DNA of 33,918 bases, from assembly GCA_005889135.1 (NCBI GenBank), contig VBEK01000011.1:1-33918 (forward strand). Reading direction: 5' to 3'. The first letter of the stretch is position 1; each line of letters starts with the position of its first letter. The position numbers and the translations under genes were made by a program. Positions 16,461-33,876 of this stretch are shown piece after piece. The notes beneath the pieces were generated by a model, which made no database searches, was not told where the DNA came from, and worked only from the letters and a program-made list of their open reading frames with translations. Origin of the DNA: Chloroflexota bacterium. GTDB lineage: Bacteria; Chloroflexota; Dormibacteria; Dormibacterales; Dormibacteraceae.

Positions 16461-16601
16461 TCATCAACCTCCGCCCTGCAACTTAGGGCCAGGGCAGGCC
16501 GTGGTCGATGGTGAGGGCTGGCGTCTTTGAGTAGGGTCAGCCGCACGGCGGCGGTGACGCTGGCTCCCTTGTTCGAACTCGAGTCAGCGCGTCCACTTAC
16601 G

Positions 16602-17927
16602 GTGTTGGCAAAGATCACCGTGCTAGTCGCCGACGACAGCGTGATCGTGCGCGAGGGATTGCGCGCGCTGCTGGAGACGACCGAGGATGTGGTCGTCGTC
16701 GGGTTGGCGTGCGACTACGACGAGGTGATCGCGCGCGCGGAGGCGCTCGAGCCGCAGGTGATCGTCACCGACATCCGCATGCCACCGACTTTCCAACGCG
16801 AGGGGATTGACGCCGCTCGGCTCGTGCGCAAGAGGCATCCCGGGACCGGGATCGTGATCCTGTCTCAATTCGACGACCCCGAGTACGCGGTCGCGCTGCT
16901 CAGCGAAGGCGCCTCGGGCTGCGCCTACCTGCTCAAGGATGGCTTGGCGGCCGGAGATCAGCTGGCGAGGGCGGTGCGCATCGTGACCACCGGCGGCTCC
17001 TTGCTCGATCCCAAAATTGTCGAGGCGCTGGTCCTACCGCTCGACGAGACGGACCTGACGCCCGTGGAAGAGGAACTGCTCGCGTGGGTGGCAGAGGGTA
17101 GGTCCATCAAAGCGATCGCGCTCAAGCGCTTGACCACGGGCGCTGAAGTGGCCGCGTCAGTCGCGCAGCTCTTCCTCAAGCTTGCAAAACAGGCGTCAGG
17201 CGGCGGAGAAGCGGGTCTTCGCAATCTGCGCCGGCTGCACCAGGCCATTGTCGATCGCGAGGAGCAGGGTGAGATGCTCAGCCGCCTGCTCCCAGGCGGC
17301 ATCGCAAATCGACTGCGTCAGCGTGGTCATGGTCTCGGTGACGTCCAGCAGCTCGTGGTTACCGTCCTGATCTCAGATGTGCGCGGCTACTCGGCGATCG
17401 CCGAAGTCACCGACCCGTCGCGGCTGGCGATGCAGCTAAAGGAACATCGCATAGCGGCCAGCGAAGCCATCCTGGCCCAGCGCGGGACAGTCATGCAGTT
17501 CGTCGGCGATTCAGTGATGGCGGTGTTCGGCGCCCTCGAGCCACTCGCCGATCATGCCGATCGCGCGCTCATGGCAGCCGAGTCGATGCACAGAGCCCAG
17601 TTCGCGGTCAACCGGCGATGGAAGGGGGAGGGACTCCCCATTTTTGAGCTCGGAATCGGCCTGACGACAGGGGTAGTGGCCGCCGCGCTGATCGGGAGCG
17701 ATGAGCGTGCCGAGTACTCGCTTGTGGGTGATGCCGTGAACCTCGCGCAACGCCTGCAGCAGCTGGCGTCGGGCGGTGAGACTGTGGTCAGCGATGCGAC
17801 CTATGGGGCTTTGACCATCCCTCCCCGCGCTGAAAGGCTGGGTCCGACCTCGGTCAAAGGCCGCCACGAGCCGGTTACCGCCTTTCGGGTTCACGCGCCG
17901 CAGCCAGATAGATCAGCGTCGCCTTGA
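16602..17927 (+). CDS. Response regulator-class III nucleotide cyclase fusion
   Basis: This 441-residue protein begins with a NarL-type receiver: acidic pair Asp11/Asp12, phospho-acceptor Asp57 (VTDIRMPP), Ser88 and Lys112. A degenerate LuxR-like helical segment follows (about 150-195, DLTPVEEELLAWVAEGRS, without a convincing recognition helix), then a class III cyclase domain (about 250-430). Both metal Asp residues (Asp259 in ISDVRGYS, Asp303 in VGDSVMAVF), Asn380 and Arg384 (GDAVNLAQRL) are kept, while the substrate Lys is Gln299. Phosphorylation by a kinase, perhaps the one at 10713, would control the cyclase. The start is uncertain: GTG 16602 fits the receiver best, TTG 16527 would add 25 residues, and neither has a clear ribosome-binding site. 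Its 3' end overlaps the opposite regulator gene by 53 bases. Confidence 0.85.
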   Translation: MLAKITVLVADDSVIVREGLRALLETTEDVVVVGLACDYDEVIARAEALEPQVIVTDIRMPPTFQREGIDAARLVRKRHPGTGIVILSQFDDPEYAVALLSEGASGCAYLLKDGLAAGDQLARAVRIVTTGGSLLDPKIVEALVLPLDETDLTPVEEELLAWVAEGRSIKAIALKRLTTGAEVAASVAQLFLKLAKQASGGGEAGLRNLRRLHQAIVDREEQGEMLSRLLPGGIANRLRQRGHGLGDVQQLVVTVLISDVRGYSAIAEVTDPSRLAMQLKEHRIAASEAILAQRGTVMQFVGDSVMAVFGALEPLADHADRALMAAESMHRAQFAVNRRWKGEGLPIFELGIGLTTGVVAAALIGSDERAEYSLVGDAVNLAQRLQQLASGGETVVSDATYGALTIPPRAERLGPTSVKGRHEPVTAFRVHAPQPDRSASP

Positions 17928-30205: not shown

Positions 30206-30323
30206 CGCTCGACCCTCCTGGCCACGTTGTCGAAAGCCTCGGAAGCGTAACCGCCTTTGAGGACTCTCAAAGCATCGTCGACCCGATGCGTGGGCTCAGC
30301 GGCGAATGGATGAGAGAGGAATT

Positions 30324-30423
30324 GATAGTCGCGACTAACCGCGGTTCCGGCGTGGGAGATGTCGTGATAGTCGCGACTAACCGCGGTTCCGGCCTGGGAG
30401 ACGTCGTGATAGTCGCGACTATC
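30324..30423. repeat. 42-bp tandem repeat with nested palindromes (2.4 copies)
   Basis: Copies begin at 30324, 30366 and 30408 (the third partial). Each begins GATAGTCGCGACTA, holding the perfect palindrome TAGTCGCGACTA (30326-30337, 30368-30379, 30410-30421). The first two also hold AACCGCGGTT (30337-30346, 30379-30388). They differ at two of 42 positions. In the last copy the palindrome extends to GATAGTCGCGACTATC. The array lies about 120-220 bases upstream of the LLM gene start and next to the terminator of the secreted-protein gene. Confidence 0.85.
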
Positions 30424-30424
30424 A

Positions 30425-30450
30425 GGGCGGCAGCCACGAGGCTGCCGCCC
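30425..30450 (-). terminator. Strong hairpin terminator of the secreted-protein gene
   Basis: GGGCGGCAGCC (30425-30435) pairs perfectly with GGCTGCCGCCC (30440-30450) over a four-base loop, 6 bases beyond the stop of the gene at 30457. T-rich flanks exist only on the plus side (TTTC), so it may end transcription from either direction. Confidence 0.7.
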
Positions 30451-30456
30451 TTTCGG

Positions 30457-30954
30457 TTACTGGGTGACTGTGAACTGGTAGCAGGCACTCTCCAGTGCCA
30501 CAGCCGTGGTAGCCGCGTCGACGATGCGGAAGTGGATATCGAACTGCGTCCCAAGCGGGATGGCCGCCAGGTTGCGGAACAAGCTCGCACGGCCGGTTCC
30601 CGTTTCGTCTGTCGTGATCGCCTGGACAACCGACCCCTGGCCGAGCGTGAGCCAGTTCGTTCCGGTGCAGGCGTCGTTCACGGCCAAATCCGTCGCTCGC
30701 TGAAGGTAGTAGCTGTGGTTCGGGGCCAGGTCCCGCACCCACACATCCAGATAGACGATCTTGTCGGCGTCCTTTGGCTGACGAAACTTCACCAATCCGA
30801 AGCCACCGTCGGGTGTGCCTGCAACTGGTCGCAGGATGACTTCAAGGTTGGCGCCCGAGTCGGCCCGAGCGGCGACCGGAGCCGCGATGGCCACACTTGT
30901 CACCGCCGCCAGCACAGCGCAGACCTTGAGCAGACGCATGGTTCCGATCCTCAT
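30457..30954 (-). CDS. Secreted protein with Sec signal peptide, hypothetical
   Basis: This 165-residue protein starts with a signal peptide: a short basic region, a hydrophobic stretch (LLKVCAVLAAVTSVAIAA) and a likely cleavage after ARA (near residue 31). The mature part is beta-rich with FDIHFRIVD and YLDVWVRDLAPNHSYYLQ and two Cys that could form a disulfide. No family is recognised. AGGAGG (30965-30970) supports the ATG at 30954. A Crp-type palindrome is centred about 98 bases upstream of the start, and a strong hairpin follows the stop, so it looks like a separately regulated single-gene unit. Confidence 0.75.
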   Translation of the reverse strand: MRIGTMRLLKVCAVLAAVTSVAIAAPVAARADSGANLEVILRPVAGTPDGGFGLVKFRQPKDADKIVYLDVWVRDLAPNHSYYLQRATDLAVNDACTGTNWLTLGQGSVVQAITTDETGTGRASLFRNLAAIPLGTQFDIHFRIVDAATTAVALESACYQFTVTQ

Positions 30955-31039
30955 CGCGTGTAGACCTCCTGATCATCCGAGGCTGAAATTGGCGCCTCGC
31001 CGTTCGAGACTGCCGGCAGCGTCCGTCGTTCAGGCGGTC

Positions 31040-31069
31040 CCGCCTGTGATATCCGTCACAAACAGGCGG
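31040..31069 (-). terminator. Hairpin after the cyclase-Crp gene
   Basis: CCGCCTGT (31040-31047) pairs with ACAGGCGG (31062-31069), six bases beyond the stop codon of the gene at 31076. A competing hairpin uses CAGGCGG (31031-31037) with CCGCCTG (31040-31046). The loop region contains the Crp-type site. No T-run follows, so termination is only likely. Confidence 0.45.
31045..31060. promoter_or_regulatory. Crp/FNR-type palindrome TGTGA-N6-TCACA
   Basis: TGTGATATCCGTCACA has both half-sites of the classical Crp consensus. It lies between the stop of the cyclase-Crp fusion (31076) and the start of the secreted-protein gene (30954), about 98 bases upstream of the latter. A second GTGATATC lies at 31069-31076. 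The fusion's own helix-turn-helix is the obvious candidate binder. Confidence 0.6.
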
Positions 31070-31075
31070 TGATAT

Positions 31076-32575
31076 CTAGCACAGCGATCGCAACCGGGCC
31101 TCATCGAGGATCGTGATGTGACCTTGCTGGATCGACACCGCGCCCAGGGTGATCAGCCGGCTGAGGGCGCGGTTGACGTTCTCCCGGCTGGCGCCGACCA
31201 TCGATGCCAGCTCGCCCTGGGGGACCCTGATACCGATCCGCCGGCCGTCGGCGACCGCGGTGCCGTGCCGGTCGGCGAGTTCCAGCAGCTTGCGGGCGGT
31301 CCGGCCCGGCACGTCAAGAAAGGCGACGTCGGCCAGCTCCTCGTCCTTCCGTCGCACGTACCCGACCACGGTGGCGAGCAGACGCAGGCCAAGCTCAGGG
31401 TTCGCTCGCAGGGCGGCCTGGAGGTCGTCCTTGCTCAGAACGACGCAGCTCGTGGATTCGACGGCGACGGCGTCCGCGGTGCGGACCCCAGCGGCGTCGA
31501 ACACGCCAAGCTCGCCGAGGGTGTCTCCGGCTGATAGGAGCCGAAGCACAAGCTCCCGGCCGTGACGCGACGTGCGCGTAACACGGACAAGACCACGCTC
31601 GATGACCAGAAGGAAGTTCGCCGGTTCGCCCTCCCTGACCAGGTGGGCGCCGGCCGCGAACACTCGGCGGTGAACCCGGCGTCGCAGGGTGCCCGCCAGC
31701 TTGGGCGAGATCCCGGCGAACAGAGGCGTGCGAATGAGCACATCGATCGGTTCGACGCCACTGGAGACTGGGGTCTCCAGCTGGAGGCGATAGGTGTCTA
31801 CCGGGGAGCTTGCACCCTTGAACGAGACGGTCTCGCCGATGTCGAAGGGAAACTCCGCGGCCCCGGCCCGGGTCGCAGCATCGACGAGCGCCTCCCCGGC
31901 AGCAGCGCGAGCGGTCAAGCCGGCAGCGCTGTTGGTCACGTCGCCGACCGCCGTGAAATCTTTGAATCCACCGCCTCCGACGTTTCCGCAGTACTCGACG
32001 CCGGAGGAGATGCCGATTCCAATCTCGATCCAGGGTCCGTCCGGCGTCCGATATCCCACGGCGTCGAGAAGGCCGGCGGCGGCGGCGACCGCTTTGCTCT
32101 GGTAGTCGCGGCCGCTGAGGCCGGGCACGAATAAGCCCATCACCTGGTCGCCTGCGATCTGACCCAGGACCCCTTCCTGCTTGAGGAGCACCCGCGACGC
32201 CACGTCGTAGAAGCGATTGAGAAGAGCGGGCACCTCATGTGGAGAAAGCAACCGTGTCAGGGTCGTGTAGTTCCGAACGTCAGCAAAGAGGACGCTGATC
32301 GGCACTATCGCGCCACCTTCTGGCGCCCACTCGAGGCACCGGGCGCAGACGTGAGGAGTCCTTTTGGAGGGGCGGTAACCCAGGGCACGGAATGGCCATG
32401 TGACCGGACCGCCATAGGGCGCATTACAAACCTTGCAGCGCGGCCGGCCAGGAAAGAGTGCAAATGCCCGGCGCCCCAGGCGTGGCCCGAGTGCGGCGAA
32501 CCGGTCGCCGCGCAGGATGGCCGACCAGTGCTCATCCATTGGGACGTGGCTGCCATTCGGCTTTGACGCCGCCAT
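31076..32575 (-). CDS. Zinc-ribbon/cyclase/CNB/Crp-HTH fusion regulator
   Basis: The 499-residue protein combines four modules: a zinc-ribbon-like pair of CxxC motifs (Cys47/50 and Cys77/80), a class III cyclase domain (about 90-265), a CNB domain (about 285-400) and a Crp-type winged helix (about 425-495, ELASMVGASRENVNRALSRL). The cyclase keeps both metal Asp residues (Asp99, Asp143) and Asn215, but the substrate Lys is Gln139 and the transition-state Arg is Gly219. The CNB cassette is complete (GELGVF, Glu355; Arg365, Thr366). So it may bind a nucleotide with the first module without turning it over, and cNMP with the second, to control DNA binding. The ATG at 32575 is chosen; ATG 32539 is possible. 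A Crp-type palindrome lies just past its stop. Confidence 0.88.
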   Translation of the reverse strand: MAASKPNGSHVPMDEHWSAILRGDRFAALGPRLGRRAFALFPGRPRCKVCNAPYGGPVTWPFRALGYRPSKRTPHVCARCLEWAPEGGAIVPISVLFADVRNYTTLTRLLSPHEVPALLNRFYDVASRVLLKQEGVLGQIAGDQVMGLFVPGLSGRDYQSKAVAAAAGLLDAVGYRTPDGPWIEIGIGISSGVEYCGNVGGGGFKDFTAVGDVTNSAAGLTARAAAGEALVDAATRAGAAEFPFDIGETVSFKGASSPVDTYRLQLETPVSSGVEPIDVLIRTPLFAGISPKLAGTLRRRVHRRVFAAGAHLVREGEPANFLLVIERGLVRVTRTSRHGRELVLRLLSAGDTLGELGVFDAAGVRTADAVAVESTSCVVLSKDDLQAALRANPELGLRLLATVVGYVRRKDEELADVAFLDVPGRTARKLLELADRHGTAVADGRRIGIRVPQGELASMVGASRENVNRALSRLITLGAVSIQQGHITILDEARLRSLC

Positions 32576-32601: not shown

Positions 32602-33876
32602 ATGCGGCGGGTCCTCGTGGGAGCGGCGGCAGTCGTCACATCGCTCGGGTGGCTCCAGCTGGCGGCGGCCTTTGGCTTTCCGGTGACCGCGCCGGCGGCG
32701 ATGCTCGACCGAATGCTCGGAGCCCAGCGTGAGGCCGGACCGGCAGGATGGGTCTTGCTGCTGCTCGGCGAGGCAGCGCTGGCAGCCGCATATTTCCTCG
32801 TCGTCGAGCCCAGGACTCGCGGAGTGGTCGCCCCTATCGCCTACGGACTGGGCGCCTGGCTGCTTTCGGGCGCTGTCCTCATGCCGATCGTTGGCTTGAT
32901 TCAAGGCGCCCCGCCCGCCGGCGACGCTCCCAACGATCCCATGCGTGCGACCTTCTTCATGCTCAACCTGGGCCCTGGTGCCGCGGTCGAGTCTTTGGTG
33001 GCGTGGCTGCTGTTCGGCGCCGTGCTGGCCGCGGGGAGAACCCTCGACGTGCGGCCTCGCGTCTTCTATATGTCCGGCGGCGCCGTGGTACTGGCCGCCG
33101 CCGTGGCGTTCGCGATCCCGATCATCGGGACGCGGTCTGACGTGGACCGGGTCGTCGAAGGCAATCTGGCGGCCCTGCCGACCGGGCCTGTTTTCATCAG
33201 CGTGCTCGAGCTCCCTCAGCCCGCCGGGGCGGTGCTCGGTCCGCACACGCATATCGCGGGCTTTGTCCTGGACGTTTCCGGCACCGCCACGATGGCAATC
33301 GCGGGCAAGGGGACAGTCGACGTGGGCCCAGGCGATGCAGTCTTCACGGCGAACCTCCAGCGCCACGATCACGAGAACAGAGCGGCGGTGCCTGCTGCGA
33401 TCGTCCTCGCCGGTCTGCTCATCATCCTGACGGTCGCTTTGGTGGCCGGAGCCTGGCGTCGTCGCGCCGCGGTAGTACTGGCTCCGCTGCTTGTCCTGGG
33501 AGTCATCGCGACGATCGATCCCTTGATGAATCACTGGTATTTCGTCGGGGTTCGCCCAGCCACTGCGCACGGAGCTGTGATGCCTGTACCCGCCGGTCAC
33601 CGGACATACGAGTCCGACAACCTCACCGCTGTCGCGGCCGGACCCTATACCGAGCGTCTTACTTACCGCCGGCTTGCCTCGGGTGAATCGCTTCGCCTGA
33701 GCGGCCCAGCTGCAATCGTCGTGCTCGACGGCCAGGTTTCGGTCACCACGGGAGCAACGACGACAGGCTTACACGCTGAGTCGGGTGCAACCATCGCCGG
33801 TGGCGCAGAAGCCACCGTCCGGGCCGTTTCGGGAAGCGCACGGATCGTGGTCGTTCAACTGTTACCCCAGGTTTGA
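32602..33876 (+). CDS. Membrane protein with two embedded cupin-like domains
   Basis: This 424-residue protein has about five hydrophobic segments in residues 1-175, a cupin-like beta domain (about 195-262) with possible metal ligands His215, His217 (GPHTHI), His255 and His257 (RHDHEN), two more membrane helices (264-310), and a second beta-rich cupin-like part (about 330-424) without the histidines. Cupins next to membrane helices suggest a ligand or metal sensor or a small enzyme at the membrane; no function is known to me. The ATG at 32602 gives the first membrane helix; the frame is open further upstream but overlaps the opposite gene. Only 26 bases separate it from the divergent cyclase-Crp gene, so the two may be co-regulated. 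Confidence 0.72.
   Translation: MRRVLVGAAAVVTSLGWLQLAAAFGFPVTAPAAMLDRMLGAQREAGPAGWVLLLLGEAALAAAYFLVVEPRTRGVVAPIAYGLGAWLLSGAVLMPIVGLIQGAPPAGDAPNDPMRATFFMLNLGPGAAVESLVAWLLFGAVLAAGRTLDVRPRVFYMSGGAVVLAAAVAFAIPIIGTRSDVDRVVEGNLAALPTGPVFISVLELPQPAGAVLGPHTHIAGFVLDVSGTATMAIAGKGTVDVGPGDAVFTANLQRHDHENRAAVPAAIVLAGLLIILTVALVAGAWRRRAAVVLAPLLVLGVIATIDPLMNHWYFVGVRPATAHGAVMPVPAGHRTYESDNLTAVAAGPYTERLTYRRLASGESLRLSGPAAIVVLDGQVSVTTGATTTGLHAESGATIAGGAEATVRAVSGSARIVVVQLLPQV

Follow-up and report, generated by a model that had tools for sequence, protein, structure and literature searches.

A Crp-type regulator fused to a probably non-catalytic class III cyclase half in a rare clade of Chloroflexota

The window, by which we mean the whole stretch of 33,918 nucleotides that was analysed, encodes a 499-residue protein that joins in one chain a four-cysteine ribbon, a class III cyclase domain, a cNMP-binding (CNB) domain and a Crp-type helix-turn-helix. 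The same chain was found, end to end, in four other Chloroflexota genomes (G391, G422, G395 and G281), where it is 71, 69, 68 and 67% identical, respectively, to that of the window over the full length. On balance, we favour the view that the protein is a Crp-type local regulator in which the cyclase and the ribbon form a non-catalytic input domain. The features on which the argument depends are the following.

30457..30954, minus strand: 165-residue protein with a signal-peptide-like N-terminus, proposed secreted target; relatives in G391 and G422
31045..31060, no strand: palindrome TGTGA-N6-TCACA, proposed operator; core conserved at 5/5 loci
31076..32575, minus strand: fusion gene, 499 residues (four-Cys ribbon, class III cyclase that is a putative pseudo-cyclase, cNMP-binding domain, Crp helix-turn-helix)
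31085..31303, minus strand: Crp-type helix-turn-helix, residues 425-497, recognition motif SRENVNR (Pfam, residue table)
31403..31666, minus strand: cNMP-binding domain, residues 304-391, with Glu355, Arg365 and Thr366 (Pfam, alignment with GlxR and Mtb CRP)
31781..32305, minus strand: class III cyclase domain, residues 91-265, with Asp99, Gln139, Asp143, Asp212, Asn215 and Gly219 (Pfam, PDB alignments, residue table)
32336..32437, minus strand: four-Cys ribbon, residues 47-80, with Cys47, 50, 77 and 80 (Cys in 36/36, low dN)
32602..33876, plus strand: divergent membrane-type protein with a Cupin_2 domain; adjoins the fusion in 5/5 loci

Architecture and predicted structure

The fusion open reading frame begins with ATG and runs through 499 codons with no internal stop. 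Pfam places Guanylate_cyc (PF00211) at residues 92-264 (E 1.5e-7, 31.6 bits, cut-off 21.9), cNMP_binding (PF00027) at residues 304-391 (E 5e-20) and HTH_Crp_2 (PF13545) at residues 425-497 (E 3e-16), the last two also above their cut-offs, and these matches lie far above chance level. The PF00211 match and an alignment with CyaB (2e-12) identify a cyclase homology domain of the class III fold, and the CNB domain followed by a Crp-type helix-turn-helix is the arrangement that defines a Crp/Fnr transcription factor. At the N-terminus, all four cysteines of the pattern C-x2-C...C-x2-C are present in 36/36 aligned sequences, including the window; no Pfam name was found for this ribbon, which we regard as a putative metal-binding element. 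The earlier note had read four domains in a single 499-residue chain, and both the reading frame and the Pfam matches agree with it, the ribbon resting on its Cys pattern; the residue positions it gave (Asp99, Gln139, Asp143, Gly219, Glu355 and Arg365) all proved correct. A second class III cyclase, located behind a response-regulator receiver domain, is encoded elsewhere in the window (16527-17927).

An AlphaFold2 monomer model of the fusion, built with 48 aligned sequences, had a mean pLDDT of 87.7 and a pTM of 0.62. In a fold search with this model the best 50 matches were all of the Crp type, with GlxR and Mtb CRP first; the best match, to GlxR, had an E value of 8.1e-23, a TM (target) of 0.60 and an rmsd of 11.8. 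Because TM (target) ranged over approximately 0.5-0.67 and rmsd over approximately 8-12 among the matches, the arrangement of the domains in the model is unsure. No cyclase structure was among the fold matches listed for the whole model.

The cyclic nucleotide pocket and the recognition helix

In alignments, Glu355, Arg365 and Thr366 occupy phosphate-pocket positions of cAMP receptors, and the first two coincide with the GEL and RT residues that GlxR and Mtb CRP have there. The CNB cassette of the window is thus intact, as had been claimed. Arg365 is kept in 4/5 fusions and is Gln in G395, and cNMP sensing may therefore not be general across the fusions. The C-helix pair at the base-contacting positions is Lys410-Asp411 in the window, Lys-Asp also in G391 and G422, Lys-Glu in G395 and Gly-Asp in G281. 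The window thus has none of the Thr-Ser, Thr-Asn or Thr-Thr pairs of known cAMP receptors; the corresponding pairs are TN in M. tuberculosis CRP, TS in that of E. coli and TT in that of P. putida (PMC4005916). The CNB domain of the window may bind one or another cyclic nucleotide. The recognition helix, SRENVNR, retains the Arg-Glu...Arg pattern of CRP, and we presume for these three residues the role that they have in the CRP recognition helix.

Catalytic residues of the cyclase half

Alignment with CyaB (3r5g) and OaPAC places Asp99 and Asp143 on the metal-binding Asp positions, Gln139 on the Lys position and Gly219 on the position of the transition-state Arg; the functional roles of positions 99, 139, 143 and 219 are those that we take to be general in the family. 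The cyclase of the window accordingly has both metal-binding Asp residues, as the earlier note stated, but only half of the transition-state pair (Asn215 kept, Gly219 in place of Arg), and Gln139 stands where the base-selecting Lys (or Glu) would be. We compared these positions in 36 ribbon-cyclases, namely the 5 fusions including that of the window, 5 sister standalone cyclases and 26 others. Asp143 is present in 36/36, and Asn215 in 10/10 of the fusions and sisters and in 25/26 of the others. Asp99 is kept in 31/31 non-fusions and in 2/5 fusions (window and G281), with His, His and Gln in the other three. Position 139 is Gln in 10/10 of the fusions and sisters, the 26 others having 22 Lys and 4 Arg. 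Two further positions vary: position 144 is Gln or His in 5/5 fusions and Glu in 5/5 sisters and 20/26 others, and position 212 is Glu in 4/5 fusions and 2/26 others and Asp in 5/5 sisters. Gly219 is found in the window alone, the 4 other fusions and 5/5 sisters having Arg. In 8/26 of the other ribbon-cyclases position 219 is His (7) or Ser (1); these proteins (L079-L087, from the phylum of an Ilumatobacteraceae genome) may represent a second group of non-canonical or inactive enzymes.

The earlier note had preferred to see a pseudo-cyclase here, citing the loss of Lys and of the transition-state Arg. The preference is supported, although the grounds for it partly differ. Gln139 does not by itself serve as a sign of loss; it is fixed in all five sister standalones, which have both Asp residues, Asn and Arg intact, and it therefore need not mean inactivity. 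Rv0386 also presumably uses Gln at this position. The loss at position 219 is true of the window, but 4/5 fusions keep the Arg and 8/26 members of the wider family lack it, and Arg219 was lost separately in the lineage of the window. The strongest sign of lost catalysis is instead the replacement of Asp99 by His, His and Gln in the sister fusions. Along with the window's Arg loss, the absence of Glu144 from 5/5 fusions and the conservation of the domain, it is what now speaks for a pseudo-cyclase. Asp99 was lost once or twice inside the fusion clade, depending on a weakly supported branch (81/21). Departures from the consensus do not prove inactivity, because Ma1120 of Mycobacterium avium is reported to be active with Ala in place of Asn and to be harmed by the introduction of Asn (PMC4215837).

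One alternative is a make-and-sense switch, in which the product of the cyclase half, a cyclic nucleotide, is read by the CNB half within one dimer. The window retains both metal Asp residues and Asn, and G281 retains Asp, Asp, Asn and Arg, so that some members of the clade may still be active and G281 in particular may be an active exception; Gln at the Lys position, being common to otherwise intact standalone cyclases, would be no obstacle. Yet Asp99 is gone in 3/5 fusions, the Arg is gone in the window, and Arg365, on the reading side, is lost in G395. Among the unfused relatives of the Crp half, a class III cyclase frame was seen at 5 of 25 aligned standalone loci; at the other 20 a cyclase is absent from the stretch covered, which for most loci was approximately 1.5 kb on each side. 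One unfused cyclase-Crp pair, in G017:C244 (L077, 7374-8574), belongs to the window's own family; the cyclase, of class III, has Asp, Lys, Asp, Asn and Arg all present, and its stop codon lies 7 nt before the Crp start codon. Weighing both sides, we consider a make-and-sense switch unlikely.

Selection on the N-terminal half

Among the fusions, pN/pS was 0.07-0.12 for the ribbon, 0.14-0.30 for the cyclase, 0.11-0.38 for the CNB domain and 0.05-0.55 for the helix-turn-helix, with dS near or past saturation in many of the pairs on which these ratios and the dN comparisons are based. The ribbon region (residues 34-90) had the lowest dN of the four domains in 9/10 fusion pairs, and dN was lower for the cyclase than for the CNB domain in 9/10 pairs. 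Because pN/pS is well below 1, the N-terminal half is kept by selection and is not debris, and residue losses combined with purifying selection make up the pattern of a pseudo-enzyme.

A second alternative is that the protein is a plain Crp regulator to which the cyclase half contributes a ligand-free dimerisation or stability module. Class III cyclase domains dimerise, and the erosion of the catalytic residues would be expected of such a module. However, neither the Cys ribbon nor the GNVGGGGFKDFTAVG loop varies among the five fusions, and this, together with the low dN of the ribbon, points to a ligand or a partner rather than to bulk packing. We judge this alternative to be quite unlikely, and continue to prefer a local regulator with a non-catalytic input domain.

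Distribution and authenticity

The fusion chain is rare within the genomes searched. In a search of 61 genomes (the window's own and 60 relatives) the full chain was found in the own genome only, and in 400 genomes of the phylum it was found in 4 (that of the window, G391, G395 and G281). The four full-length relatives belong to family f32, which lies in the same phylum but differs from the family of the window (f1); the full chain occurs in 4/28 genomes of f32, and the same four (G391, G422, G395 and G281) were the only ones among 177 genomes of its class. Two other phyla were searched: the 12 matches listed (E <= 1e-42) for 396 genomes from the phylum of an Ilumatobacteraceae genome included none of full length, and neither did the 3 listed (E <= 1e-32) for 398 genomes from the phylum of a Bradyrhizobium genome, thresholds at which a distant fusion with weak halves could escape. 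Among 72,556 plasmid records, 476 had a match and 0 had one covering 80% of the chain. Finally, a scan of 84,980 species with two ribbon patterns, which are narrow enough to miss distant fusions, returned 5 loci, 3 of them full fusions (G391, G422 and G395). The earlier note had called for a count of the architecture in databases, and by this count it is not widespread in what was searched.

An artefact, whether an assembly chimera, a lost stop codon merging two adjacent genes or a contig in the wrong genome bin, might be suspected from the standalone cyclase that G429 has at the equivalent cupin-adjacent locus and from the position of the full-length relatives in another family of the phylum, but it is scarcely credible, because four other genomes encode the same chain end to end with an identical junction and because the contig is native to its genome. 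With the junction seen again in four assemblies, we ruled out an assembly error, and we ruled out mis-binning on three grounds. The acyl-CoA synthetase of the same contig is 93% and 89% identical in two genomes of the same genus. Another gene of the contig has matches in 12/12 f1 genomes tested and in 0/6 of f32, and the contig also carries a palindromic repeat found mainly in the window's genus.

That repeat is present as three 42-nt direct repeats (30311-30436), each with the palindrome GATAGTCGCGACTA. The repeats are seen also in G000:C40 (L092, 2057-2201) and in many other contigs, with 156 forward and 147 reverse exact matches to GATAGTCGCGACTA in the genome (often one site on both strands) and 0 for the reversed-pattern control. 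Among the matches listed, the sites lie mostly in clusters at 42-nt steps, or approximately four helical turns. By the same count, one congener gave 25 and 22 matches and the remaining 15 gave between 0 and 4 per strand, and the 44 other relatives together gave just one.

Origin of the two halves

In separate trees of each half, the five fusions fall together on one side of a branch (Crp half 100/100; cyclase half 100/99), which fits a single origin of the fusion clade. The closest relatives of the cyclase half are five standalone cyclases from families f32 and f21 (51-58% identity). The Crp half falls into a group (97/99) with standalone Crp proteins from f1 and f3, the window's own family and class; one of these, G000:C120, is encoded in the window's own genome and shows 45% identity. 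As the nearest relatives of the two halves are in different lineages, the chain has the look of a chimera drawn from both.

The distribution over f1 and f32 might suggest a recent transfer between these families, but this was not supported. The fusion is 67-71% identical between them, and the acyl-CoA synthetase of the same contig is similar, at 69, 67 and 71% in G281, G391 and G422, so that a recent transfer is not required and descent with many losses would fit as well as transfer. An empty site was not seen in the two contigs of the same genus that also carry the acyl-CoA synthetase; beyond that gene, their resemblance to the window is limited to short repeats and distant family matches, and long synteny does not continue. 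A region of approximately 4 kb in G440 contains four separate genes: those of a cupin protein, a sister cyclase and a distant Crp (28%), and one encoding a weak relative (27%, E 4e-7) of the protein downstream of the fusion.

A candidate operator and the neighbouring genes

The sequence TGTGACGGATATCACA at 31045-31060 is an exact CRP-type palindrome, positioned 15 nt past the stop codon of the fusion and 90 nt ahead of the next start codon. In the other four fusion loci, the corresponding position reads AATGA-N6-TCATA. The core TGA-N6-TCA is thus kept in 5/5 loci, and the next base pair has changed on both sides together (G/C in the window, A/T in the four). The exact palindrome has 1 match in the window, where 0.04 is expected and 4/100 shuffles have one. 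Genome-wide it occurs at two places (reversed control 0), against approximately 3.5 expected on extrapolating the window shuffles, and enrichment over the genome is not clearly seen; the second copy overlaps open frames. In the first 100 nt the palindrome is the most symmetric 16-mer, a symmetry equalled in 47/5000 column shuffles by a test that was designed after the palindrome had been seen. On this evidence we propose it as a candidate operator for the gene downstream. No promoter or terminator pattern was found at 30900-31150. We also considered an RNA hairpin or terminator. Of the three stretches folded, that of the window folds better than shuffles (z -2.4, 5/200 as good), but those of G391 and G281 do not (z -0.15 and -0.41), and this reading was rejected.

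The 165-residue protein encoded downstream is 78-79% identical in G391 and G422; in G395 and G281 the gene downstream of the fusion encodes a cupin-like protein, not the 165-residue type. No Pfam match was found for the 165-residue protein at E 0.01, and its model (4 sequences, mean pLDDT 70.4) is weakly like Cu,Zn superoxide dismutases (best E 1.2e-3, TM approximately 0.4). On the other side, the divergent membrane-cupin gene, the start codon of which was chosen by alignment, begins 26 nt from the fusion gene on the opposite strand and adjoins 5/5 fusion loci, with 62-67% identity. It is also found beside 4/5 sister standalone cyclases (G429, G494, G493 and G440), there being no cupin match in the 8 kb examined at the G452 locus, and because it adjoins these standalone genes, the cupin link is probably older than the fusion. 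In G391, a putatively transposase-like open reading frame (L021, 3-557) adjoins the fusion cassette.

Discussion

The model that we favour for the fusion has the following steps. The C-terminal half would form a Crp-type dimer that binds the TGTGA-type palindrome beside its own gene and, from there, would control the gene downstream and perhaps the fusion gene and the divergent membrane-cupin gene as well. The cyclase and ribbon half, having lost catalysis or being in the course of losing it, would act as a non-catalytic input; it would dimerise and bind a nucleotide, a metal or a partner, and its state would be passed on to the Crp half. A cyclic nucleotide, supplied by other cyclases, may still fit the Crp pocket.

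One could envision a more specific scenario, which we put forward tentatively, in which a cyclase has turned into a receptor. Once fused to its own reader, the cyclase site would have lost catalysis in more than one lineage and become an allosteric sensor of nucleotide or metal, so that a single dimer reads one signal in the cyclase pocket and another in the CNB pocket to control one local promoter. If this is true, the clade would show directly how the maker of a second messenger becomes a sensor.

Second-messenger makers and readers are normally separate proteins, and here they are joined in one chain. The single clade, whose members have lost catalytic residues in different ways and whose two halves each have intact standalone relatives, constitutes a small natural series in which to study how enzymes turn into sensors and whether catalysis can be dispensed with as a result of fusion. 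The system also brings a testable candidate operator and a defined neighbour gene.

Among the titles and abstract openings of the open-access matches listed, we found no description of a chain with cyclase, CNB domain and Crp helix-turn-helix. The accessible part of one account of multi-domain bacterial cyclases mentions cyclase domains accompanied by a CNB domain or by a helix-turn-helix motif, mainly in two-domain proteins, and that part of its description does not have all three together (PMC4886424). Cyclase-HTH and cyclase-CNB proteins have thus already been described, and it is this domain order for which we found no description in the literature searched. The cyclase-LuxR regulators of Actinobacteria (CHD+LuxR, e.g. 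Rv0386) likewise have a cyclase homology domain and a helix-turn-helix in one chain (PMC3466318), but their helix-turn-helix is of the LuxR type, whereas that of the fusion is of the Crp type, has its own cNMP-binding domain and does not belong to the LuxR class.

Each half of the fusion also has a counterpart among separate proteins. Standalone class III cyclases with the same four-Cys ribbon are approximately 35-58% identical to the fusion over ribbon and cyclase, keep Asp99 in 31/31 cases and are encoded by open frames of 264-456 residues; among the matches listed, the alignment ends within or just beyond the cyclase half of the fusion. The Crp/Fnr cAMP receptors (GlxR, Mtb CRP Rv3676 and E. 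coli CRP) share with the fusion the CNB domain and Crp helix-turn-helix, the phosphate-pocket Glu and Arg and the Arg-Glu...Arg of the recognition helix, with 33-35% identity to GlxR and Mtb CRP over approximately 220 columns. Unlike these receptors, the fusion has its Crp part placed behind a ribbon-cyclase half and Lys-Asp as its C-helix pair.
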